Origin: a virus
Strand: one strand, 5' to 3'
Length of the DNA stretch: 26,936 bases
IMG/VR virus record: IMGVR_UViG_3300044714_000043
Span: 1 to 26,936 of that record
Of this stretch, positions 11,015-26,765 are shown in pieces. Every line of letters begins with the position of its first letter. The stretch's first letter is position 1. The notes below the pieces were generated by a model that was not told where the DNA came from, did no database searches, and saw nothing but the letters and a program-made list of their open reading frames with translations. A program made the position numbers and the translations under genes.

Positions 11015-11653
11015 TCATACCCTCGTCTTGGTTCGCACCCATCCGAGACCCAGGAGCATTATCGCGAACAACCCAAGCGTCGCGGGCTCGGGAACCCCGC
11101 TGAATTCCATCGTCGCCTCGAGGTCCTGATCCGCGGCGGTGAAAGCGGCATCAAACAGTTCGGCATTGCTGGCGATCGCCGGCAAACCGGCATCGGTAAA
11201 GGCGGCGTCGAGGGCGCCCGCCGTCGGCGGGAACGTCTCGGTATTGAGCACGGCGCCGTTGACCAGCATCGTCTCGGTGACAGGACCAGGCGCGCCGACC
11301 AGGCCGTTGTAAGTATCGGTCGTCAACCCGGCAAACCCGGCCGGCACTGCAAGCCCGGTCTGCGTCGCGGTGATATCGAGAGTATGACCCGCACCGGTGG
11401 CCCCGGTTACACTGAGGGTAACAGTGCCGAGATCGGGTGCAGGCACCGCCGGCACCCCGGTTATGTCGATTGTCACGTCCGAGAAATTCGGATCACCGGT
11501 CAAGGTGCCGATCAAGTTGCCGGGCGACGGCGTGGTTTCGAGCAAGGTTTGCGGCACCCCGTTATCGGTCAGGGTAAGCGTCAGGGTTGCGTGCGCCGGT
11601 CCGGCGGACGCAAGCGCCGCGGCAGCAGCTGCGGCGATGATCAAGGAACGCAT
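11015..11653 (-). CDS. Secreted PEP-CTERM-anchored protein, likely cargo gene
   Basis: 212 residues from the ATG at 11653, which follows GAGAGGAG by seven bases. It has a signal peptide (MRSLIIAAAAAAALASAGPA, cut after AHA) and a Thr/Gly-rich beta-type body (TLTLTLTDNGVPQTLLET, DVTIDITGVPAVPAPDLGTV). The C-terminus is a complete PEP-CTERM sorting signal: VPEPATLGLFAIMLLGLGWV followed by basic RTKTR. Such proteins are exported and processed by host exosortases. It sits inside the phage replication operon between an unknown gene and gapR, so it is probably a moron. The open frame continues upstream to 11875 without a stop. Confidence 0.8.
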   Translation of the reverse strand: MRSLIIAAAAAAALASAGPAHATLTLTLTDNGVPQTLLETTPSPGNLIGTLTGDPNFSDVTIDITGVPAVPAPDLGTVTLSVTGATGAGHTLDITATQTGLAVPAGFAGLTTDTYNGLVGAPGPVTETMLVNGAVLNTETFPPTAGALDAAFTDAGLPAIASNAELFDAAFTAADQDLEATMEFSGVPEPATLGLFAIMLLGLGWVRTKTRV

Positions 11654-11875
11654 GCTTGTTCTCCTCTCGGGTTCAAATTGCGGTGCGGTATCCAGCGGCG
11701 CGCGAACCAGCAATCTGCCGCCGCAGGCAGTGCAGCCCGGCCCTTTGTCATTCCCCGTACAGGCACCAAACGGGTCGATAACCCAGCAGCCGGCGCGGTG
11801 GTCGCACTCGCCCGGCCGGATCGCCTCACGGTGCGGACGCCATTTGTCGATTAGGGCTTGCGGTGTCACGGTCAT
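11654..11875 (-). CDS. 74-codon Cys-rich ORF fused in frame ahead of the PEP-CTERM gene
   Basis: The ATG at 11875 overlaps the upstream stop (ATGA), typical of this operon, and the frame runs without a stop into the PEP-CTERM ORF. The segment has five cysteines (GECDHRAGCWVIDPFGACTG, GPGCTACGG) that suggest a small zinc-binding phage protein. Either the two genes were joined by loss of a stop codon, giving a 286-residue fusion with an internal signal peptide, or both starts are used. The internal start has the better ribosome-binding site. Confidence 0.5.
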
Positions 11876-15119: not shown

Positions 15120-15361
15120 TCCGTTTCGTCATCGATGAGCCGGCGTTTCGTCGCCTCGTCGCCGGTCAGCCGCTGACCGTTGAGGGCGTCGAGATCATGA
15201 TCTCGGGGAGGATCGGCTGGGTAAAGTTGATGCGCGCGATCCTCGACGCGGTGGCGCCGGCGGCGCGCGACGCTACCGCACCGCTTCCCGAGGCGCGGCA
15301 GGGCGGCCCACCAGATCCGCCGCAGGCGCGCGAATTCCTACCGAGGAGTGGACGGCGATGA
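15116..15361 (+). CDS. Small phage protein, unknown
   Basis: 81 residues; ATG overlaps the Cro-like stop. It starts MIRFVIDEPAFRRLVAGQPL and VEGVEIMISGRIGWVKLMRA, an alpha/beta pattern, followed by a Pro/Ala/Gln-rich tail. The stop overlaps the start of the nuclease gene (ATGA). Coupling suggests a helper of the recombination module; no family recognised. Confidence 0.6.
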   Translation: MIRFVIDEPAFRRLVAGQPLTVEGVEIMISGRIGWVKLMRAILDAVAPAARDATAPLPEARQGGPPDPPQAREFLPRSGRR

Positions 15362-16206
15362 CCGGGCTCGCGACAGTCATCCGGTGTAGTGCCCTAACGG
15401 CATACCCCGATTGCAACCGGCGCGGTGCGGCGCGGTTGTTCTGGCGCGAGATCAGCAGCATGGGTTTTCGGCTGCGGTCGACGCCGCGCGGCATCGGCGC
15501 CGCGATCGGTAGCGCGGTGCACCGAGCGGCCGAGGTCATCCTCCGGGAAAAGGCCGAAAGCGGCACTCTGCCGCCGTCGACGGTCGCCGCTGATTGCGCG
15601 GCCGAGACGCTACTCGAAGGATTGCGCGAGGGTGTCGAGTTCGACCGGGTGACCGCGAACCAGGTCGAGGGCGAGGTTACCGCGGTCGGCATGGCGCGCG
15701 CCTATCATCGCGTCGTGGCGCCGACAGTTGACGCGGTGCTGATCGAAGAAAGGCTAGAGGCCGAGGTTGCCCCCGGTCTGATTCTGTCGGGTCAGCCCGA
15801 CGTCGTCGCGCGCGAGCCGCATCGGGTGCGCGATCTAAAAACTTCGACCCGCGCGAGCGGTGGTCATTGGCCGCAACTCGGTGCCTATTCATTGATCGTT
15901 CGCAGCAATAACATAGAGATTGAAGAGGCAGCGGTTGACAGTATCAGGCGAGTTGCGATCGGCAAGCCGCAGCCCGACCCAATATCGAAACCAGTGGCGA
16001 TCGCCCAGGCCGAGACGGCGGCAAGCAACATCCTCCGTCATATCGCGGGCGACCTCGAGACGTTCCGCAATGGCGATCCAGCGCGGCGCATCCTGCCCGG
16101 CGATCCGTGGGCGTTCCAGGCGAACCCGTCATCGATCTTGTGCTCGCCAAAGTATTGCCCAGCGCATGGCACTGAGTTCTGCCAGGAATGGCGGCAAAAT
16201 GAATAA
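15358..16206 (+). CDS. PD-(D/E)XK exonuclease, Cas4/RecB-like with four Cys
   Basis: 282 residues. The core motifs of RecB/Cas4 nucleases are visible: GSAVHRAAE (His about 55), a Glu in IEERLEAEV (about 132), GQPDVV (D148), VRDLKTS (D159, K161) and QLGAYSL (Q173, Y177). A Cys near the N-terminus (AYPDC, C19) and three at the C-terminus (LCSPKYCPAHGTEFC) fit the iron-sulphur cluster of Cas4-type enzymes. In phages this enzyme resects DNA ends for a RecT-type annealing protein, here RecT at 20436. The first pentamer array begins right after its TAA. Confidence 0.82.
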   Translation: MTGLATVIRCSALTAYPDCNRRGAARLFWREISSMGFRLRSTPRGIGAAIGSAVHRAAEVILREKAESGTLPPSTVAADCAAETLLEGLREGVEFDRVTANQVEGEVTAVGMARAYHRVVAPTVDAVLIEERLEAEVAPGLILSGQPDVVAREPHRVRDLKTSTRASGGHWPQLGAYSLIVRSNNIEIEEAAVDSIRRVAIGKPQPDPISKPVAIAQAETAASNILRHIAGDLETFRNGDPARRILPGDPWAFQANPSSILCSPKYCPAHGTEFCQEWRQNE

Positions 16207-16359
16207 GAGGACGCGAGCGGAAGGGAAATCCGAAGATATGACCAGACCAGCATGGATGTCAGGTGAGCGGATTGGTTTTATTGGATATGAAGTGACCTGA
16301 GTAGAACCGACGAGACTTGACAGAAGGTGAACCGACAGGATCAGAGAGGAGTGGTTTCA
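16207..16359 (+). repeat. NNNGA pentamer array, first segment
   Basis: Directly after the nuclease stop the sequence falls into five-base steps ending in GA. From 16207 to 16271, 10 of 13 pentamers end in GA; after a 17-base box (GGATTGGTTTTATTGGA, 16269-16285), 12 of 13 pentamers from 16286 to 16350 do. The array runs straight into the ribosome-binding site and ATG of the next gene, whose start region (16348-16364) resembles the box. TGA and TAG triplets occur throughout, so it is not coding. Confidence 0.88.
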
Positions 16360-16968
16360 ATGGATACGCTGACAATCCGCCTGAGAGGCTCGGCGCCGAC
16401 GATCATGCAGTGCGACCGATTGGTCAATCCGTTCGATACAATCACACGCCAGCTAAAGACGATCACTGCGAAGCGGAAAAAAACCGACGCCGACCTCGAG
16501 GAGATCAATCGGCTGAAATTCCTTGGCTCGCTCTATTACGAGCCCAAGATTGGGCCCCACTGGCCCGGTCAGAACATCGATCGCATGATCTTCGACGCGG
16601 CCAAGCTGTCGCGTCGCGGCCAAGACATCAAGCGCGCCTTCATGGTGATGGATGACATGGTGCCGCTGATCTATGACGGGCCGCGCACGCCCGAAGAGCT
16701 CTATGCGGATGCGCGGTTTGTCGATATCCGCTCGGTCGTGATCCGCGGCCAGCGCGTGATGACCTGCCGGCCGATCTTCCGGGAATGGAAGGTCGAATAC
16801 GAATGTGCCTATGACCCGGATGTGCTGAACCGCGACGACGTGGTCGCCTTCCATGCTACCGCCGGGCAGTTCATCGGTTTGAGCACTTACCGACCGCGCT
16901 TCGGGCGCTTCGGGGTCGAGGCCGTCGATGGCGTCGCCTTCATCGGCCAACCGCGGCTCGCCGCTTAA
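16360..16968 (+). CDS. Phage protein related to the 18521 product (family A paralog 1)
   Basis: 202 residues from ATG 16360, eight bases after GAGGAG; upstream in-frame codons read the array. It begins MDTLTIRLRGSAPTIMQCDR, has a basic middle (QLKTITAKRKKTDADLEE) and a conserved C-terminal half: VMTCRPIFREWKVEYE, DPDVLNRDDVVAFHATAGQF and the Gly/Arg-rich RPRFGRFGVEAV. The same order of motifs occurs in the 18521 product. The final Gly-rich strand-loop is reminiscent of RAMP-fold (Cas6/Cas7-like) proteins, which is only a suggestion. It lies between two pentamer-array segments. Confidence 0.65.
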   Translation: MDTLTIRLRGSAPTIMQCDRLVNPFDTITRQLKTITAKRKKTDADLEEINRLKFLGSLYYEPKIGPHWPGQNIDRMIFDAAKLSRRGQDIKRAFMVMDDMVPLIYDGPRTPEELYADARFVDIRSVVIRGQRVMTCRPIFREWKVEYECAYDPDVLNRDDVVAFHATAGQFIGLSTYRPRFGRFGVEAVDGVAFIGQPRLAA

Positions 16969-17619
16969 TTACATGGGAGTAGAAATGACCAGACAGTGAC
17001 TTGATGTGAAGGGAAGTAAGGACAGCCGACAGGATGTGATGTGAATCGATGCGACTGTAATAGATCAGTTCTGAAGTGACGTGATCAGAGAGGATTGGTT
17101 TATTGGAATGGAACGGTAGCAGAACGGACCCGAGCAGAAGCGATAGGACGTGAAGTCAGTAGAGGCGGATTCTCATTTGACGCGAAGTGATGTGGTCGGA
17201 GCAGCATGGATCTCAGAGGATTGGTTTATTGGAGTAGACGGGATGTGCTTACACCAGAAATGACGATGAGCGGCAGTGATTTGAAGCGACACGAGGGGAA
17301 GTGATCAGAGAGGATTGGTTTATTGGAGCAGAGCAGAAGGTGACCGTAAATCATCGGATGTCAGCAGACTATATAATATCAGAAGTGATATGAGCAGAAG
17401 GTGACCTGACAAGAGATCATCTGAGCGGATTGGGTTTACGAAGGAACGTTGGTTTATTGGACAGGAGGCGACCGGAATTTAGCAGACGCGATTAGAACGC
17501 GAGGGGATCACAAGCGAAGTGAAAGGATTGGTTTATTGGAAATGATGGGAGCACAGCCGAACCGAATAAATAGGATCGTGACCTGACTAGCTATGAAGTG
17601 AGCAGAGAGGATTGGTTTG
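16969..17619 (+). repeat. NNNGA pentamer array with repeated GGATTGGTTTATTGGA boxes
   Basis: About 650 bp without a gene. The sequence is built mainly of five-base steps carrying GA (TGA, AGA, CGA, GGA), with the phase shifting now and then. The box GGATTGGTTTATTGGA is exact at 17092-17107, 17218-17233, 17312-17327 and 17525-17540, and decayed at about 17426-17461. The variant GGATTGGTTTGATGGA (17609-17624) contains the start codon of the next gene. Spacing between boxes is about 84-126 bp, and most are preceded by AGAG like a ribosome-binding site. Cytosines are scarce on this strand. Confidence 0.9.
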
Positions 17620-18126
17620 ATGGATGACGAAGACGACCATCTCACTCAGCAATATCCAGCCTGGCGCGAGGCGATCAGTCGCCTGGTGCGTGACAAGCGG
17701 CTCATGCCGGACACGCTGTTCGAATTCGCCGAATTGTATGAACTGTTTTTGATCAAGCGGCCATTGCCATCGACACCGCTCGCCGAGGCGGAAAAGCTGA
17801 AACTGCAATTTCTCGCCCAGTTCGTCGACTTCGAGGAAGCGCTGTTGACCGAGCACCAGGTCGCGCTCGCCAATGTCCGCGGCGTCGGCTATCGCATCGT
17901 GCCGCCGGCGGAACAAACGACATGGGCCGAGCGACACGGCATTGCCGAGGTTCGCAAGGCGGTGCGCAAGCTTTCCGATCGCCTGACCAATGTCGATTTC
18001 ATCGCGCTCGGCGCCGAGGATCGCAAAGCCAATGCCGACGCCCTCGCACGTCTCGGCATGCTTGGCGGAATGCTGAAACAGGCGACCGAATTCAAGCTGT
18101 TTCCGACCGACAAAGAGGAAAAATAG
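17620..18126 (+). CDS. Hypothetical phage protein of the recombination operon
   Basis: 168 residues from ATG 17620 within the last box; GAGAGG lies about nine bases upstream. An acidic start (MDDEDDHLTQQYPAWREAIS) precedes a helical part and the motif ALANVRGVGYRIVPPAEQTT, WAERHGIAEVRKAVRKLSDR, then LARLGMLGGMLKQA. The GVGYRIVPP--Q core recalls conserved uncharacterised proteins of alphaproteobacterial phages. Its stop is followed at once by the duplicated recT start. Role unknown. Confidence 0.65.
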   Translation: MDDEDDHLTQQYPAWREAISRLVRDKRLMPDTLFEFAELYELFLIKRPLPSTPLAEAEKLKLQFLAQFVDFEEALLTEHQVALANVRGVGYRIVPPAEQTTWAERHGIAEVRKAVRKLSDRLTNVDFIALGAEDRKANADALARLGMLGGMLKQATEFKLFPTDKEEK

Positions 18127-18321
18127 ATGGCAGAAACTGCGCGCCCGCAGCTAGTCAATCCGCGCGAGGATGGCGGCGCACCCGCAGAGCCGGCCTTGCC
18201 CGGCGGGACGTGGCCCGTCCAGGCATGGCACGGCTTGGCACGGCATGGCAGGCGGGGCGCGGCGCGGCCGGGCGACGCGTGGCCTGGCGAGGCCAGGCAA
18301 GGCTTGGCAGGCACGGCTTGA
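18127..18321 (+). pseudogene. Duplicated, truncated start of recT running into the GGCNN array
   Basis: The first 28 or so codons (MAETARPQLVNPREDGGAPA) match the RecT start MAETTRPQLVEPRQDGGGSA, and the DNA stays similar for about 80 bp to the LP at residue 24-25. After that the frame reads only array sequence to a chance stop at 18321. AGAGGAAAAATAG before the ATG is a good ribosome-binding site, so a 64-residue peptide could be made. It marks the left edge of a probable insertion within the recT 5' region. Confidence 0.8.
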
Positions 18322-18504
18322 CGTGGCTTGGCGTGGCACGGCCCGGCCGGGCAAGGCCGGCAGGGCAGGTCGGGGCGCGGAGTGGCGAGGCGTGGCTGGG
18401 CTCGGCAGGCATGGCTGGGCGGGGCGCGGCGAGGCAGGGCTCGGCGAGGCAGGGCTCGGCAGGCAGGGCTGGGCGTGGCAAGGCTCGGCGGGGCAGGCTT
18501 TTAA
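18205..18504 (+). repeat. GGCNN pentamer array 1 (left flank of two-gene cassette)
   Basis: About 300 bp made of GGC every five bases (for example 18221-18250 six NGGCN units in a row, 18251-18310 eleven of twelve GGCNN units). The two variable bases change freely and the phase slips by one base at intervals. GCC is rare, so the strand is strongly G-over-C. No stop codon can arise easily, so all six frames look open; none should be taken as a gene. The array ends just before TAGAGGAGAAAATTC and the ATG at 18521. Confidence 0.9.
18410..18453 (+). repeat. 44-bp exact direct repeat, copy 1
   Basis: This 44-bp stretch beginning CATGGCTGGGCGGGGCGCGG occurs again at 19853-19896 in array 2 in the same orientation. 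The copies are 1,443 bp apart and enclose the genes 18521-19713. Recombination between them would delete or loop out the cassette. Confidence 0.85.
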
Positions 18505-18520
18505 CTAGAGGAGAAAATTC

Positions 18521-19231
18521 ATGCGCGGACAAGCAAACACTGGTAACGGCAAAGCGGCACGCGACCAAATCCCGCCACTCGCGCCGGCCGAGATCGACGC
18601 CGTATTGCAAAAGGGCAAGGTTGAAACAGTCGTTATCAGCCCACCCAATATGCAAAAAGCAGTGCTGCATATTCGCGGCCTCTCGCCGTACGTGCAGCAC
18701 AAATTCAGTCAAAAGGCGCAAGCGCAAATGGAGGAGACCCAGCGCGCCGGCACGCAGGCGCGCAGCCGTAAAAAGCGCGAGGCGCGCGACTTCGAATCCG
18801 GTTATCTGGCCGCCCAGCATATTTCTGTCGAAGGCTGGCGCGGTATCCCGGCACCCGCCTTTAGAAATGCGATGATTGACGCTTGTCGCCTTGTCGGGTT
18901 CGTAATGACCAAGGCGAAACTATCGGTTTTCGTCGAGGCGGACGGATACGACGCGAGCGACGGCACCCCGCTCGTTAAAATCATTGGCGTGCCCGAGATT
19001 CATAAAGGCTGGGGCCGCAATGCCAACGGTACGGCGGATTTGCGCTGGCGGCCATTGTGGCGGGAATGGGAAGCGAACCTTCCTCTGCGCTGGGATGCCG
19101 ATCAGTTCAGCGCGACTGACGTTTTTAACCTGACAGCGCGCGCTGGACTGCAAGTCGGTATTGGTGAAGGGCGGCCATCGAGCCCGAATAGCTTCGGCCT
19201 CGGCTGGGGTCTGTTTGAGGTTCTCGCCTGA
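18521..19231 (+). CDS. Phage protein related to the 16360 product (family A paralog 2)
   Basis: 236 residues from ATG 18521 with GAGGAG eight bases upstream. Notable segments: VLHIRGLSPYVQHKFSQKA, GWRGIPAPAFRNAMIDACRL, ADLRWRPLWREWEANLPLRW, VFNLTARAGLQVGIGEGRPS and SFGLGWGLFEVLA. The order RP-(L/F)-REW, D-D, ARAG--(I/V)G, RP, FG-G-(F)EV matches the 16360 product, so the two are distant paralogs. The glycine-rich ending is of the kind seen in RAMP-fold RNA-binding proteins, but no catalytic motif is visible. It overlaps the next gene by one base. Inference: a nucleic-acid binding partner of the recombination module. Confidence 0.65.
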   Translation: MRGQANTGNGKAARDQIPPLAPAEIDAVLQKGKVETVVISPPNMQKAVLHIRGLSPYVQHKFSQKAQAQMEETQRAGTQARSRKKREARDFESGYLAAQHISVEGWRGIPAPAFRNAMIDACRLVGFVMTKAKLSVFVEADGYDASDGTPLVKIIGVPEIHKGWGRNANGTADLRWRPLWREWEANLPLRWDADQFSATDVFNLTARAGLQVGIGEGRPSSPNSFGLGWGLFEVLA

Positions 19232-19713
19232 TGACGGATCGCGAAGCGCAACTCCGCAGCGAGCTCGAAGACCTAATCGACGCTGACGGCCGGATTTTCG
19301 CGGCCGACGTTGTCGATTTTGCGGTTCGCAATCCGGACAGCGAACTTCACCGCCGCTTTCAATGGGATCAGGCAAAAGCGGCTTATCAGCACTGGCTCCA
19401 TACTGCGAGGCATCTGATCGCCGTCTACGTCCTCGACGTGCGCGGCGAGCGGCGGACGATCTCGCTCACAACCGACCGCGTCAACGGCGGCGGCTATCGC
19501 GAGCGAGACGACGTACTGTCATCGGCCGAAATGCGGCGCCAGGCAGTGCAAGACGCGATTGCCGAAATTACGCGCTGGCGTGATCGCAATAATCACCTGC
19601 ACGAACTCGCGGAAATCTTCGCCGCGATCGATCGGGCGACGACTGGACCACCGCCAGCGCAGACCCGTCGAATGCGCCGGCTAACGCCGCCCGAGGAACG
19701 GCCGAGCGCGTGA
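19231..19713 (+). CDS. Hypothetical phage protein, second gene of the array-flanked cassette
   Basis: 160 residues; ATG overlaps the previous stop (TGATG). It contains FQWDQAKAAYQHWLHTARHL, VRGERRTISLTTDRVNGGGY and a helical end with ITRWRDRNNHLHELAEIFAA. The GGGYR--DDVL motif recalls uncharacterised proteins of alphaproteobacterial prophages. The stop is followed within ten bases by array 2. Function unknown; expected to work with the 18521 product. Confidence 0.65.
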   Translation: MTDREAQLRSELEDLIDADGRIFAADVVDFAVRNPDSELHRRFQWDQAKAAYQHWLHTARHLIAVYVLDVRGERRTISLTTDRVNGGGYRERDDVLSSAEMRRQAVQDAIAEITRWRDRNNHLHELAEIFAAIDRATTGPPPAQTRRMRRLTPPEERPSA

Positions 19714-19721
19714 AAAAGACG

Positions 19722-20420
19722 TGGCATGACGAGGCTTGGCGGGACATGGCTTGGCTAGGCAGGGCAGGCGTGGCACGGCGAGGCATGGCTGGGCGTGGCA
19801 CGGCGGGGCATGGCTGGGCGGGGCGCGGCGAGGCAGGCGTGGCACGGCGGGGCATGGCTGGGCGGGGCGCGGCGAGGCAGGGCTCGGCGAGGCAGGCATG
19901 GCATGGTTCGGCTTGGCACGGCAGGGTGTGGCGCGGCCGGGCAACGCCGGCTCGGCAGAGTTGGGCCGTTCAGTGCACGAGCGGTCTGGGCTTGGCAATG
20001 CAAGGCAGGCGCGGCCCGGCGGGGCGTGGCACGCCGTGGACAGGCGGGGCTTGGCCGGGCAGGGCGCGGCAGGCGTGGTGTGGCGGGGTTGGATGCGGCG
20101 TGGCACGGCACGGCGCGGCATGGCAGGGCGGGGCACGGCAGGCGGGGCAGGGCGGGGCACGGCGGGGCACGGCGGGGCATGGCTGGGCGGGGCAAGGCGA
20201 GGCAGGCGTGGCACGGCGAGGCGCGGCGAGACAAGGCACGGCCGGGCGTGGCGAGGCCGAGCGGGGCGAGGCAGGGCTCGGCAGGCACGGCACGGCACGG
20301 CACGGCGGGGCAATTGGCTGGGCGGGGCTAGGCGGGGCGCGGCAAGGCGGGCATGGCGTGGCTGGGTTAGGCGTGGTCTGGCGCGGAGCGGCACGGCATG
20401 GCTCGGCAGGCACGGCAAGA
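19722..20420 (+). repeat. GGCNN pentamer array 2 (right flank of two-gene cassette)
   Basis: About 700 bp of GGC at five-base intervals with variable dinucleotides, longer than array 1 and including nested 44-bp-period copies near 19808-19896. A less regular interval lies near 19945-20030. The same strand is G-rich as in array 1. It ends at GGCACGGCAAGATAGGGAG, which forms the ribosome-binding site of recT. Apparent ORFs of 150-320 codons on either strand here are artefacts of the repeat. Confidence 0.9.
19853..19896 (+). repeat. 44-bp exact direct repeat, copy 2
   Basis: Identical to 18410-18453 and in the same orientation; see that entry. A further partial copy of its first 30 bases precedes it at about 19809-19838. 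Confidence 0.85.
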
Positions 20421-20435
20421 TAGGGAGATCAATGG

Positions 20436-21524
20436 ATGGCTGAAACCACTCGCCCACAACTTGTCGAACCGCGTCAGGATGGCGGCGGCAGCGCCCCGGC
20501 TCTGCCCGCGGAAATTGAGGGCGGCTTGCCGGCATTGCCGGAATTCGAGGCGATGCCGCGCGGGTTGCGGATTTTCTTTGATCCAAAATGGCGCGAGGCA
20601 TGCCAGGCCGCGGCGACGAGTCTGTCGAAAGCGGTCGGCTTTGCACCGCCGCATCTGATCGGCAAGACCGAAAGCTGTCTCGCCGTCGTCAATCTGGCGC
20701 TGACCTGGAACCTCAGTCCTTACATGGTCGCGAGTTCCACCTATCAAATGCCCGGCGGCTCGGTCGGATATGAGGGCAAGCTTGTGCACGCGATCCTCGA
20801 AGCGTCGCGGCGGCTCGTTGGCCCGATCCGCTACGCCCATTATGGCGATTGGTCTCAGGTCCAGCGCAAATTCGAGATCAAGGAACGCCCCCGGCAAAAC
20901 CGCGACGGGCGCGGCGATGACGAGCGCGGGCCGATCAAATGGGCGGCCCCCACTTACACCGCACAAGACGAAATCGGGCTCGGCGTCACAGTGACGTGCC
21001 GGTTGCGCGGCGAGGACGAAGACCGCCGGCTCGATTTCGACATGGTCCAGGCGTTCCCGCGCAATTCGACATTGTGGGCAACCGATCCCAAGACCCAATT
21101 GCAATATGCCGCGGTGCGGCGGTTGGCGAGCACGGTCGTCCCGTCGCTGCTGATGGGCGTTCCGTTTGACGGCGAGCCGGACGGCGGCGGCGATTGGGCG
21201 AGCAATCTAGTTGACGTCACCCCGCTCGCCGAGCCCCGCGAACAGCCTGCGCAGCCCCCAGGGGCGGCCAGGGAACCCGGATCGCGCCGCCGCGCAACAA
21301 CGGCAGCCCCAGCGGAAAGCGCGTCCGGGGCGGCCCCAGAGGCACCCACAAACCTTGGCCCTGGCCACGAACAGGGCGAGACGGCGAAAGGTGACGCGCC
21401 GGCGGCGACAGATCAGTCGCAACCGGTCCGGGAAGCGGCGCCACCGGCGCAACAGACCGCACAACCCGCGCAACAGCCTGCCCCTGGCCCGAACAGGGGG
21501 CGTCGGGTCCATTTCGAGGCGTGA
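20436..21524 (+). CDS. recT: RecT-family single-strand annealing protein
   Basis: 362 residues; the ATG at 20436 has GGGAG eight bases upstream. The RecT core runs from about residue 45 to 250: GKTESCLAVVNLALTWNLSP, YMVASSTYQMPGGSVGYEGK, LVHAILEASRRLVGPI, and near the end WATDPKTQLQYAAVRRLAST with VVPSLLMGVPF. RecT anneals single strands made by an exonuclease, here the Cas4-like nuclease at 15358. The last 110 residues are a low-complexity tail rich in Pro, Ala and Gln, possibly for partner binding. The 5' end of this gene is duplicated at 18127. Confidence 0.87.
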   Translation: MAETTRPQLVEPRQDGGGSAPALPAEIEGGLPALPEFEAMPRGLRIFFDPKWREACQAAATSLSKAVGFAPPHLIGKTESCLAVVNLALTWNLSPYMVASSTYQMPGGSVGYEGKLVHAILEASRRLVGPIRYAHYGDWSQVQRKFEIKERPRQNRDGRGDDERGPIKWAAPTYTAQDEIGLGVTVTCRLRGEDEDRRLDFDMVQAFPRNSTLWATDPKTQLQYAAVRRLASTVVPSLLMGVPFDGEPDGGGDWASNLVDVTPLAEPREQPAQPPGAAREPGSRRRATTAAPAESASGAAPEAPTNLGPGHEQGETAKGDAPAATDQSQPVREAAPPAQQTAQPAQQPAPGPNRGRRVHFEA

Positions 21525-22122: not shown

Positions 22123-23820
22123 ATGGACATCGAAATCGGCTTGCGCAATTTCCGCGGCTGCGAGCGTGCCGAGATTTTGCTCGCGCCGATCGCCCTCGTC
22201 GCCGGTCGCAACGCCGCTGGCAAATCGAGCGTGGCGCAGGCGACGGGCGCGGTGTTGTGCGGCGCCACCCTCCCGTTCGCGGGTCTGTCAAAAGCATCGG
22301 CAGGATTGCTGGTCCAGACCGGTGCCAAGGATGCGCGCGTCGTGATCCAGGGCGAATCAGGAACGGCGCGGATCGATTGGCCGGCGGCTCAGTATTCGAC
22401 ACGCGATCAGCCGCCGACCGCGTCGATTTGGGCGGCCGGGCTCGACAGCGTCGCCCTGCAGCCGCAGGCGGATCGCGCCCGGATCCTCGGTAAACTGTTG
22501 CATGCTGATCCGACCCGCGAAGATTTGACCGGCGCGCTGGGCGAGGTCGAAATCGATGATCGCGATACGGTCAAAATCATTTGGGACCTGGTCGCGGCGC
22601 ACGGCTGGGATGGCGCGCTCGCGCTGCGCAAGGAAAAGGGCGCCGAATACAAGGGCGCATGGCGGCAGATCACCGGGGCGAATTGGGGCAGCCGCGTCGG
22701 GGCATCATGGGTGCCGACCGGCTGGCAGTTCGAATTTGAATCGCCGCATGAGAACGATCTCCTCGCCGCCCTGGCGCTCGCCAAGGGGAACCACGACAAG
22801 GCGGTCGCCGCGGCCGCGGTGTCGGGCGCGGAGCGGACGCGGCTCGCCGCCGAGGCCGCCGCCGTCGAGGCCCGCAAGGATACTTTGCAGCAGGCAGAAG
22901 CGACCGCCGAGCGGCTCGCCGGCGAGCTCGACGTCGCGCGAAACGCGCGCGCGGCGTTGCCCCCGGGCACCGTCGATCCGGGCATGCCGTGCCCGCACTG
23001 CGGCGGCTTTGTCGTGCTGCGCCGGGTCAATCTTGCCGAAACGCGTCTTGAACAGGCCGAAGTGACGCCGACCGCGGCCGAACTCAAACAGCGTCGCGAT
23101 GCGATTGCCCGGACCGATGGCGATATCGGCCGGTTGACCGGCCAGTTGAGCGAGGCCGCCCGCGCCGTCGAGACTGCGCGCCTTCGCATGCAAAATGCGC
23201 TCCTCGCCCGCACCAGTCTCGACAAGATGCCGCCGCCGGCCGAAGCCGAGGTCGATGTCGAGGCCGCCAGGATCGACGTCGAGAGCGCCGAGCGGCGACT
23301 AAAGGGGTTTCGGCAAAAGCGCGACGCCGACGACCTGCACGACAAGATCATGACCAACAACACGGTGATCGACATTCTGGCGCCCGAGGGATTGCGCACC
23401 GCCAAACTCAAGCGGGTGCTCGAAGCATTCAACGAAACGCAGCTCGCCACTCTCGCCGATGTCGCGGGCTGGCAACCGGTGAGCCTCGATCCGGAGATGC
23501 GGCTGAGCTACGGCGCGCGGCCCTACGCGTTGCTGTCGACCTCCGAGCAATACCGGGTCCGCGCGGTGCTGCAAGTCGCGATGGCGCGCCTCGACGGGTC
23601 GGCGATGGTGGTGCTCGACGCGGCCGACGTCCTCGACGGTCCCACCCGCGAAGGTTTGTTCGATTTGCTCACCGAGGTCGGGTTGCCGGCGCTCGTCTGT
23701 CTGACCCTGACGCGGCCGGAACAGGTCCCCGATCTCGCCGCGGCTGGACTCGGCATGTCCTATTGGCTCGACAGCGGCGTCGTCCGCCCGCTGCATGAAC
23801 CCGCGGAGGCGGCGGCATGA
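22123..23820 (+). CDS. SbcC/Rad50-like ATPase with zinc hook
   Basis: 565 residues. Walker A is GRNAAGKSS (28-36), then about 250 residues of Ala-rich coiled coil with a CPHC zinc hook (290-293), a second coiled coil, the ABC signature LSTSEQYR (471-478) and Walker B MVVLDAAD (495-502). Most ATPases of this family have Glu after the Walker B Asp; here it is Ala, as may occur in phage versions, so catalysis could be altered. Such proteins tether or process DNA ends with a nuclease partner (SbcD/gp47), which is not in the window; the Cas4-like nuclease is an alternative partner. About half the length of bacterial SbcC. Confidence 0.83.
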   Translation: MDIEIGLRNFRGCERAEILLAPIALVAGRNAAGKSSVAQATGAVLCGATLPFAGLSKASAGLLVQTGAKDARVVIQGESGTARIDWPAAQYSTRDQPPTASIWAAGLDSVALQPQADRARILGKLLHADPTREDLTGALGEVEIDDRDTVKIIWDLVAAHGWDGALALRKEKGAEYKGAWRQITGANWGSRVGASWVPTGWQFEFESPHENDLLAALALAKGNHDKAVAAAAVSGAERTRLAAEAAAVEARKDTLQQAEATAERLAGELDVARNARAALPPGTVDPGMPCPHCGGFVVLRRVNLAETRLEQAEVTPTAAELKQRRDAIARTDGDIGRLTGQLSEAARAVETARLRMQNALLARTSLDKMPPPAEAEVDVEAARIDVESAERRLKGFRQKRDADDLHDKIMTNNTVIDILAPEGLRTAKLKRVLEAFNETQLATLADVAGWQPVSLDPEMRLSYGARPYALLSTSEQYRVRAVLQVAMARLDGSAMVVLDAADVLDGPTREGLFDLLTEVGLPALVCLTLTRPEQVPDLAAAGLGMSYWLDSGVVRPLHEPAEAAA

Positions 23821-24801: not shown

Positions 24802-25212
24802 ATGGGGCACTACCGCGCGTTGGACCAAGTAGCAACCGATCTCCATGTTACGCCTCGCAAACTGCGCGAGACGATCCGGGAGCACCGGATCGCAGTCTTG
24901 AAGATCGGGCGGACCATCAACTTTGACGACTCCGCGTTGCGGCAGCTTGAAGACGCCTTGCGCGAGGAAGCCCTCAAATGTCACAGCAACAGCGACCAGC
25001 AGGACTCCGGATTGTCATCCGCGCGGACACCGGCGCGCTCACGATCGTCGGCACGGTCGCCGGGCAGCGCATACGACAACGCGCTCAGAGCAGCGATCTC
25101 CGGCTCGCAAAAGAGGAAGCCGTCAACCTCGAAAAAGATCTCCTCAAAGCCGAGTGGCATGGCGAACGTCGTGGCACTCGATCCTTCGGCCAAGCCGCCG
25201 AAAGCTATCTGA
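24802..25212 (+). CDS. xis: Excisionase-like MerR-type HTH protein
   Basis: 136 residues from ATG 24802, nine bases after GGGGA. Residues 1-55 are a winged-helix excisionase domain: MGHYRALDQVATDLHVTPRK, LRETIREHRIAVLKIGRTIN, FDDSALRQLEDAL. The remaining Ser/Pro/Lys-rich tail (PGSAYDNALRAAISG) resembles tails of alphaproteobacterial prophage excisionases. The last 235 bp overlap the integrase gene in another frame. A possible promoter TTGACA (24775-24780) with a poor -10 overlaps its start and may serve the integrase. It would bend att DNA and favour excision. Confidence 0.7.
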   Translation: MGHYRALDQVATDLHVTPRKLRETIREHRIAVLKIGRTINFDDSALRQLEDALREEALKCHSNSDQQDSGLSSARTPARSRSSARSPGSAYDNALRAAISGSQKRKPSTSKKISSKPSGMANVVALDPSAKPPKAI

Positions 25213-26051
25213 ACGCGACGACGCACAGTCCTAATCACTGCGCCCGCGTCGCCCGATTGCTTAAGGCGCTCGGCGAGCGCCCCCTGAACCAGGTCAATCA
25301 ACAGGTCGCGATCGAACTCAAAAAGAAGATGCTGCGACCCAATGCGAGCGCCCGCGCCTATGGCGATGCGATCGTCATGCCGTTGCGGGCGATCCTCCAC
25401 CATGCGCAAAAGCAAGGCTGGTGCGACATGCCCTATTTCGAGGTGCCGCAGGCGAAAGCGGGCCGCACGCTCTTCCTGTTGCCCCACCAGTTCGGGCGAC
25501 TAATCCCGGTCGCGGCGCCCCATCTGCGCCCGCTGCTGACGTTCCTTGCCGGCACCGGCGCGCGGATGGCCGAAGCCCTCGAACTCGATTGGCGCGACGT
25601 CGATTTGCAAGGTGCCCGCGCGATCTTCTGGAAGACCAAGAACGGCAAGCGCCGCAACGTCGAATTGCTCCCCGCGATCGTCGCGACGCTCGCCAATCTG
25701 TCGCACCGCGAAGGCAAAGTGTTTCGTTGGCAGGATCGCGCCGGCCGGGTGCGCGACTATGTCGATCGCGAGCGGCGCTATGGCGGGCAGATCAAGACCG
25801 CGTGGGCCGGCGCCTTGAAGCGGGCCGGTCTGTCGGCAGAGTACCATCCGCACGACCTGCGGCACACCTGGGCATCCTGGCATTATGCGATGCACCGCGA
25901 TCTGTTGCGCCTCAAACTCGAAGGCGGCTGGTCGTCGATGGCGCAGGTCGAGCGTTATGCGCACTTGCTCCCGGCAGGCCAGGAAGCCGCGATCCGCGCC
26001 TTCTGGCACGGCAATGACACGGACCCTGCGGCACAAGCTCTAAGTGCTTGA
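24978..26051 (+). CDS. int: Tyrosine-type phage integrase
   Basis: 357 residues; GAGGAAG seven bases before the ATG. Residues 9-64 are an N-terminal arm-binding-like domain (DTGALTIVGTVAGQRIRQRA), then a core-binding domain, then the catalytic domain with Arg I in GTGARMAEALEL, a Lys in TKNGKRRNVEL, the HDLRHTWASW box, GGW and the nucleophile Tyr in VERYAHL. It integrates the phage into the tRNA-Arg site next to it (26084-26129). Its N-terminal domain is duplicated in the 26190 gene, including 28 identical bases at 25048-25075. Confidence 0.93.
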   Translation: MSQQQRPAGLRIVIRADTGALTIVGTVAGQRIRQRAQSSDLRLAKEEAVNLEKDLLKAEWHGERRGTRSFGQAAESYLNATTHSPNHCARVARLLKALGERPLNQVNQQVAIELKKKMLRPNASARAYGDAIVMPLRAILHHAQKQGWCDMPYFEVPQAKAGRTLFLLPHQFGRLIPVAAPHLRPLLTFLAGTGARMAEALELDWRDVDLQGARAIFWKTKNGKRRNVELLPAIVATLANLSHREGKVFRWQDRAGRVRDYVDRERRYGGQIKTAWAGALKRAGLSAEYHPHDLRHTWASWHYAMHRDLLRLKLEGGWSSMAQVERYAHLLPAGQEAAIRAFWHGNDTDPAAQALSA

Positions 26052-26189: not shown

Positions 26190-26765
26190 ATGACGATCAA
26201 AAACGCACAGAAACGGAACCCTTCTGACACGGTAGTGGCACGGCGCGACACGACGCTGGCGCGACGTTCCGGTTCTATTCCACCATCGGCGGTGGCATTC
26301 AACCAGACCCTGTTTCGACGGATTCGCGACCTCCGGCGCGCCGCCGGGCTGACACAAACCCAGATTGCCGAAGCCCTCGATATCCCGTTGCGCAGTTATC
26401 AGCATTTCGAGAACCGCAGCCCGATCCCGGCCTATCTGATCCCGACCTTCGCCGAGTTGGTCGGAAGCGATATCGGCTTTGTGCTGACCGGCGACGAAAT
26501 TCGGCCTCGCGGGCTGCGCGTCATGGTCCATCGTGATACGGGCGCGTTGACGATTGTCGGCACGGTCGCCGGGCAGCGCATACGCAAGCGGGCGCAAAGC
26601 CAGCAGCCGCAACTCGCGCACGACGAAGCGGTGATACTCGAAGCAAAACTTTTGCGATCACAATGGGAGCGTGAACACTCAATGTCGCCGGCCGACGCAT
26701 TCGCCGGCGTGCTCAGAGCAACCGATCCGGCCTCGCGCGCGAAGCGCGCCATCTCGATAAAATGA
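26190..26765 (+). CDS. XRE regulator fused to an integrase N-terminal domain
   Basis: 191 residues. Residues 40-100 are an XRE helix-turn-helix (LFRRIRDLRRAAGLTQTQIA, EALDIPLRSYQHFENRSPIP). Residues 107-163 copy the integrase N-terminal domain: RDTGALTIVGTVAGQRIRKR against ADTGALTIVGTVAGQRIRQR, with 28 identical bases at 26557-26584. The C-terminus is short and basic. It starts 60 bp after the att core and is coupled (ATGA) to a Cro-like gene. It may bind the integrase arm sites and regulate integration, or be a remnant of an earlier prophage's integrase joined to a regulator. Confidence 0.75.
   Translation: MTIKNAQKRNPSDTVVARRDTTLARRSGSIPPSAVAFNQTLFRRIRDLRRAAGLTQTQIAEALDIPLRSYQHFENRSPIPAYLIPTFAELVGSDIGFVLTGDEIRPRGLRVMVHRDTGALTIVGTVAGQRIRKRAQSQQPQLAHDEAVILEAKLLRSQWEREHSMSPADAFAGVLRATDPASRAKRAISIK

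Follow-up and report, generated by a model that had tools for sequence, protein, structure and literature searches.

Two VIPR modules with different guide scaffolds, side by side in one phage

What does a phage do with two related genes that each lie beside arrays of five-base repeats? The DNA analysed here (the window) is IMG/VR virus record IMGVR_UViG_3300044714_000043, 26,936 nucleotides, and the genes that start at positions 16,360 and 18,521 are such a pair. The original prediction took their products to be distant paralogs, possibly RAMP-like, that might recognize the arrays with a five-base step. A system of this kind is already published. The available part of a 2026 preprint (PMC13142463) describes VIPR, used by phage against phage. 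It is built on Vipr, a small RAMP protein that phages encode and that is related to CRISPR proteins, and it has accessory genes termed vap. VIPR guide RNAs (vrRNAs) are alternating GGY and NN, and DNA is read with one base skipped per unit; besides GGY-NN, "a related consensus" is named in the preprint (fig. S17), as are "staggered arrays". Experiments reported there show that the SUSP1 Vipr binds vrRNA, represses transcription and recognizes double-stranded DNA with the 1-nt skip. In this system, to which the window's genes are homologous, recognition of arrays by protein with a five-base step has been demonstrated experimentally.

Homology between the two products runs along their length. 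Profile-profile alignment gave a probability of 97.8% (E 9e-13, 173 columns), and the alignment retains the motif order first seen by eye: RPIFREW/RPLWREW, DPD/DAD, AGQFIG/AGLQVG, RP and FGRFGV/GWGLFEV. Two-sequence BLASTP aligned 46 residues of the motif stretch at E 4e-7. Both proteins match phrog_4652, Vipr A (16360..16968, + strand) at 2.3e-52 and Vipr B (18521..19231, + strand) at 5e-12; the SUSP1 Vipr matches the same family at 2e-98. The solved SUSP1 Vipr (PDB 36pp) was matched at E 2e-59 by a profile of Vipr A relatives (A4) and at 7.6e-4 by one of Vipr B relatives (A3). For the AlphaFold2 models of both proteins (pLDDT 88 for Vipr A and a weaker 70 for Vipr B) the best solved-structure matches are Csm3/Cas7 RAMPs (Z about 10 across 130-160 residues), so the guess of a Cas7-like RAMP fold was right. 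Given these matches and the A-B profile alignment, the predicted folds are neither unlike each other nor unlike the RAMP fold. Sequence and models together place both proteins in VIPR, as homologs of the SUSP1 Vipr with a predicted RAMP (RRM-core) fold; Vipr A is SUSP1-like (type II) and Vipr B is of a second type.

Five-base periodicity is found in the 27-kb record only at 16.2-16.35, 16.95-17.6, 18.15-18.5 and 19.7-20.43 kb. Pentamer arrays do lie beside both genes as first described, but they are not alike: those of module B are GGC-NN and those of module A are X-GA-NN. All features described below as belonging to the two modules are on the + strand. Module A comprises vipr A, a vap1 homolog and eight candidate vrRNAs, and by its sequence belongs to a SUSP1-like type. 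Two of the candidates precede vipr A, namely A1 (16201..16284, tail GGATTGGTTTTATTGG) and A2 (16285..16363), whose tail GGTTTCAATGG overlaps the vipr A start codon. The others follow it: A3 (16970..17106, possibly two overlapping guides), A4 (17107..17232), A5 (17233..17326), A6 (17327..17460), A7 (17461..17539) and A8 (17540..17623), the last with a tail, GGTTTGATGG, that overlaps the vap1 start. The constant tail GGTTTATTGG is thus present as GGTTTCAATGG at 16353-16362 and as GGTTTGATGG at 17614-17623, in both places overlapping a gene start. The vap1 homolog (17617..18126, likely starting at the ATG at 17620) matches phrog_5926 at 4e-20; the SUSP1 gene adjoining vipr matches this family at 1e-75, as do downstream genes of five other phages. 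A search of the region against Rfam found no known RNA, hammerhead included.

Module B consists of vipr B, an accessory gene and two long arrays. Array B1 (18222..18500) is made of GGC-NN pentamers punctuated by a four-base GGCA, and array B2 (19720..20417) has the same pentamers with GGCA every 9-15 units. Between vipr B and B2 lies the accessory gene (19231..19713), of family phrog_15946; elsewhere this family also follows vipr, being directly 3' of it in Cyanophage Cy-LDV1 and mycobacteriophage Brocalys. The vap neighbor is therefore phrog_5926, the SUSP1 vap1 family, in module A and phrog_15946 in module B, and module B appears on sequence to be another VIPR type than A. The GGCA unit, which comes about every ten units in the B arrays, recurs in Cy-LDV1, Brocalys and two other loci with a Vipr relative (L002, L004); it probably marks guide boundaries, and this punctuated architecture may be what the preprint calls staggered arrays (PMC13142463, as far as its available part describes them). 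GGCA punctuation of GGC-NN arrays was also seen in L029 and L030, as in L002 and L004.

The genes around the modules are those of a phage. Upstream, and outside VIPR, is a gene at 15358..16206 (+ strand; PF12705 4e-10, phrog_69 1e-9); downstream of B2 is a RecT-family annealing protein gene at 20436..21524 (+ strand; PF03837 2.5e-8, phrog_561 3e-37). Of the neighbors originally named, a Cas4-like nuclease and RecT, the second stands, but the nuclease is a PDDEXK (RecB-like) phage exonuclease. No cas effector operon was found, the neighbors being this exonuclease, vap, RecT and an SbcC-like ATPase, and a search for a CRISPR array by tandem repeats and periodicity turned up pentamer arrays only. 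The SbcC/RecF-like ATPase gene, at 22123-23820 downstream of recT, is present in the sister phage L022 as well. Farther away, an ORF at 11015-11875 on the minus strand ends in VPEPATLGLFAIMLLGLGWVRTKTRV, which resembles a PEP-CTERM sorting signal and is unusual in a phage, and an integrase gene (24978-26051) is followed by an HTH-like ORF (26190-26765) that nearly repeats the integrase N-terminal stretch DTGALTIVGTVAGQRIRxRAQS.

How did two complete VIPR modules come to lie side by side? Each of 56 other Vipr-bearing virus records has exactly one phrog_4652 match, a count to be read with the proviso that divergent Viprs may escape this family and that some records are fragments. Two sister phages carry one module each. 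In L001 (IMG/VR, 95% identical to the window over long stretches) the order is exonuclease, GGC array, vipr B, accessory gene, GGC array and recT, without module A. In L022 it is exonuclease, vipr A (protein 88% identical), GA array and vap1, after which comes another gene that starts with the same N-terminal leader; module B is absent. The exonuclease gene keeps its position, ahead of whichever module is present: A in L022, B in L001. Since each module is found alone in a sister phage, they appear to have been acquired separately and joined by recombination; the two Viprs are homologs, as the term paralogs implied, but not products of local duplication. Between the modules, at 18127..18205 (+ strand), is a 25-codon duplicate of the recT 5' end, seemingly a recombination scar, which aligns to 20430-20511 with a score of 73 (random pairs reach 39 at most). 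We infer that recombination at a recT-type leader joined the two modules. The leader common to recT and to the different downstream gene of L022 reads MAxTxRPQLVxPRx. The GGC-NN arrays of the window and L001 differ block by block. Beyond these sister phages, scans of genome contigs with Vipr A found no relative, a terminase scan of genome contigs found only two distant Chlorobiaceae prophages, and a DNA-level search of GenBank phages gave no near match to the record.

The arrays of module A depart from the published scaffold. Classing of the array units of some 110 loci that contain a Vipr relative showed GG-type units (GGC, GGT or mixed) in nearly all and GGA in four (L044, L058, L069 and L075); GA-type arrays were found in the window and L022 only. 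The B arrays are strictly GGC-NN, and the A arrays, which are not strictly GGY, come under the VIPR repeat definition only by way of the "related consensus" in the available part of the preprint. The register X-GA-NN was set by the constant tail, likened to the ends of GGA arrays: GGA arrays finish with GGATTGG and T-rich sequence, and the window's arrays finish with GGATTGGTTTATTGG. In this register the G is conserved at 75% and the A at 87%, with occasional six-base units, and the base X is T in 31%, G in 31%, A in 26% and C in 12% of units. L022 shares the GA scaffold and the tail, but its guides are different. X-GA-NN appears to be a derived unit, with A in place of a pyrimidine as its third scaffold base and almost no constraint on the first. 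Between the GGA-NN guides of L069 (4786-6420) and L075 (4046-5210) there is a conserved hairpin, CCGCCGTCGCAGAAATGTGACGGCGG.

Do the X-GA-NN guides still match anything? For guide A6, IMG/VR was searched for the exact eight-unit core under the 1-nt skip, and nine viral contigs matched. In one (L127) the match extends to 12 consecutive dinucleotides, 24/24 bases, running four units beyond the core and through the six-base unit; in another (L128) it covers 10 units. Both sites are antisense and fall at motif A (GLAYLDYSAQE) of DNA_pol_A-domain genes, and the skipped bases coincide with codon wobble positions. Decoded whole, A6 reads antisense as [KN]A[DE]S[CW]GLAYL[DE]Y[RS]A[HQ][DE][FL]GLA. Outside the core, 14 of 24 bases match in L127 and 13 of 24 in L128. 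A second, overlapping eight-unit core gave four matches that do not extend, with a chance-like 3-7 of 24 bases outside it. The decoded polymerase peptide, like most others, matched no Pfam or PHROGs family of the expected kind.

Guide A1 decodes antisense to [KN]AP[HQ][IM]GG[Y]S[FL]LARS, which corresponds to the QxxxY region of the phage exonuclease: HAPQIGAYSLLARS in L001, NVQIGCYSLLAQS in L022 and HWPQLGAYSLIVRS in the window itself. Its best nine-unit scores are 17/18 in L022, 15/18 in L001 and 15/18 in the window, and over 12 units it reaches 20/24 in L001; the skips fall on codon wobble positions, and the match works in the X-GA-NN register alone and requires a 1-nt skip. It was first seen after a scan of many windows, and a lone 17/18 is also expected from shuffled guides. 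Because single matches of this size arise by chance, the weight of A1 rests on the homologous site and on a gene-level test, in which its joint match to the three homologous exonucleases was higher than that of any of 3000 shuffled guides; on these three genes the other guides were unremarkable. Neither A6 nor A1 is matched in full by the best contigs, so the actual targets would be related to these. In silico, and with two guides, the noncontiguous code with its 1-nt skip appears to hold for module A.

A third decoded guide comes from the sister phage: L022 guide 3530 reads LV[DE]SPTGTG[KN]TLV[FL]G[DE], the SF2 helicase motif I LVESPTGTGKTLV (Pfam DEAD 0.013). This motif was absent from 4000 random guide sets, and shuffled decoys had no Pfam match. 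Most of the window's guides yielded no target. Exact target scans gave no match for A2, and four for A4 and five for one B block, none of which extends. Searched whole against 1.04 Mb of relatives' sequence, the guides found only themselves; tblastn of decoded 20-residue peptides in phages was too insensitive.

We conclude that the phage very probably carries two VIPR systems at this locus, and that GGC/NN guides of module B and X-GA-NN guides of module A would be directed against rival-phage genes. The arrays would be expressed as RNA and each Vipr would load on its own array, coating guide RNA built of five-base units: protein would hold the three scaffold bases of a unit, and the other two would read the target in the pattern NN-x-NN-x, which skips one base each time. 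Vipr A, loaded with X-GA-NN guides, would silence the polymerase, the exonuclease and other genes of competing phages, and Vipr B with GGC-NN guides would likewise silence competitors' genes by repression; the differing scaffolds would keep the two sets of guides from mixing. Pairing of A guides with messenger RNA may occur, since each of the two A target sites lies antisense to its gene.

Could module A instead be decaying, an ordinary GGY/NN VIPR whose arrays have lost the first scaffold base through mutation and have ceased to guide? The incomplete conservation of G and A and the six-base slips would fit this. We nevertheless consider it unlikely: L022 keeps the GA scaffold and tail with other guides, the vipr A and vap1 reading frames are open, and in the X-GA-NN register with the 1-nt skip there are still phage-gene matches for A1 and for A6, the latter even through its six-base unit. 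It is more improbable still that the arrays are simple repeats, protein-binding sites or coding sequence and that the two proteins act otherwise. The GGC arrays are indeed open in several frames, but the homologous SUSP1 system makes and uses such RNAs (PMC13142463, available part), arrays adjoin Vipr genes in phages of many hosts, and decoded guides match phage genes. Least probable, and rejected, is a contiguous GA/NNN code in which all three non-GA bases pair, as their similar composition might suggest: at the polymerase targets X agrees in only 2/9 and 1/9 units (20/27 and 19/27 with X added), as by chance, and shifted registers and other skip lengths also score as chance.

If the pair of VIPR systems is taken as the working model, which residues might read the scaffold? 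Viprs whose arrays have A at scaffold position 3 (the window's Vipr A, L022 and the four GGA loci) have T14, I15, W68 and M76 in common, and S175 is common to them too with few exceptions elsewhere; in 34 GG-type Viprs positions 14, 15, 68, 76 and 175 are mostly L, L/M, I/V/L, T/A/C and G/C. The GA pair, window and L022, have T135 and Q17, and R135 and H17 are almost invariant elsewhere. The tree splits GA and GGA Viprs (88/97), and the AU test allows a single origin (p 0.27); a convergent origin of the A-at-position-3 scaffold is accordingly not claimed. Since a single origin is not rejected, the residues common to GA and GGA Viprs may reflect shared descent and not function. That the two Viprs read mutually exclusive alphabets, as two orthogonal systems, with T14, I15, W68, M76, S175, Q17 and T135 setting the scaffold, is a tentative proposal to which we give somewhat less than even chances.

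The wider implication is that the guide scaffold of VIPR is open to change: it can drift to X-GA while the dinucleotide code and the skip rule stay unchanged, and this drift separates the bases held by protein from those that read the target. The natural series GGY, GGA and X-GA, with its co-varying residues, makes the scaffold-reading residues directly testable, and the presence of both scaffolds in a single phage suggests that orthogonal VIPR pairs could serve as tools. As decoded, the guides point to genes for replication and recombination in rival phages. These include the exonuclease of close relatives, at a site that differs in the phage's own allele. This pattern fits phage-phage conflict and self-avoidance.

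How does the locus compare with known systems? As far as the available part of the preprint allows this to be checked, both the pairing of two modules and the X-GA-NN scaffold are new; priority for the GA code is uncertain, given the "related consensus" of its fig. S17. Module A is closest to the SUSP1-type (type II) VIPR described there (PMC13142463): Vipr A and the ORF at 17617 belong to the SUSP1 Vipr and vap1 families, the guides are pentamers with a short constant 3' tail, and the 1-nt skip, wobble alignment and phage-gene targets are shared. Unlike that system, as far as it is described, module A has X-GA-NN in place of GGY-NN, an array between vipr and vap1, a very short tail (about 10 nt past the last repeat) and a second VIPR module adjoining. 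Module B resembles the Brocalys/Cy-LDV1 VIPR, with phrog_15946 as vap, in its Vipr, its accessory order and its long GGC-NN arrays with GGCA about every ten units, but differs in having a second module in the same phage. With class 1 CRISPR RAMPs (Cas7/Csm3) both modules share the predicted fold and the principle of protein-held bases that interrupt RNA-guided pairing at regular steps; the step, however, is five bases here and six there, and neither cas genes nor CRISPR repeats or spacers were found nearby.
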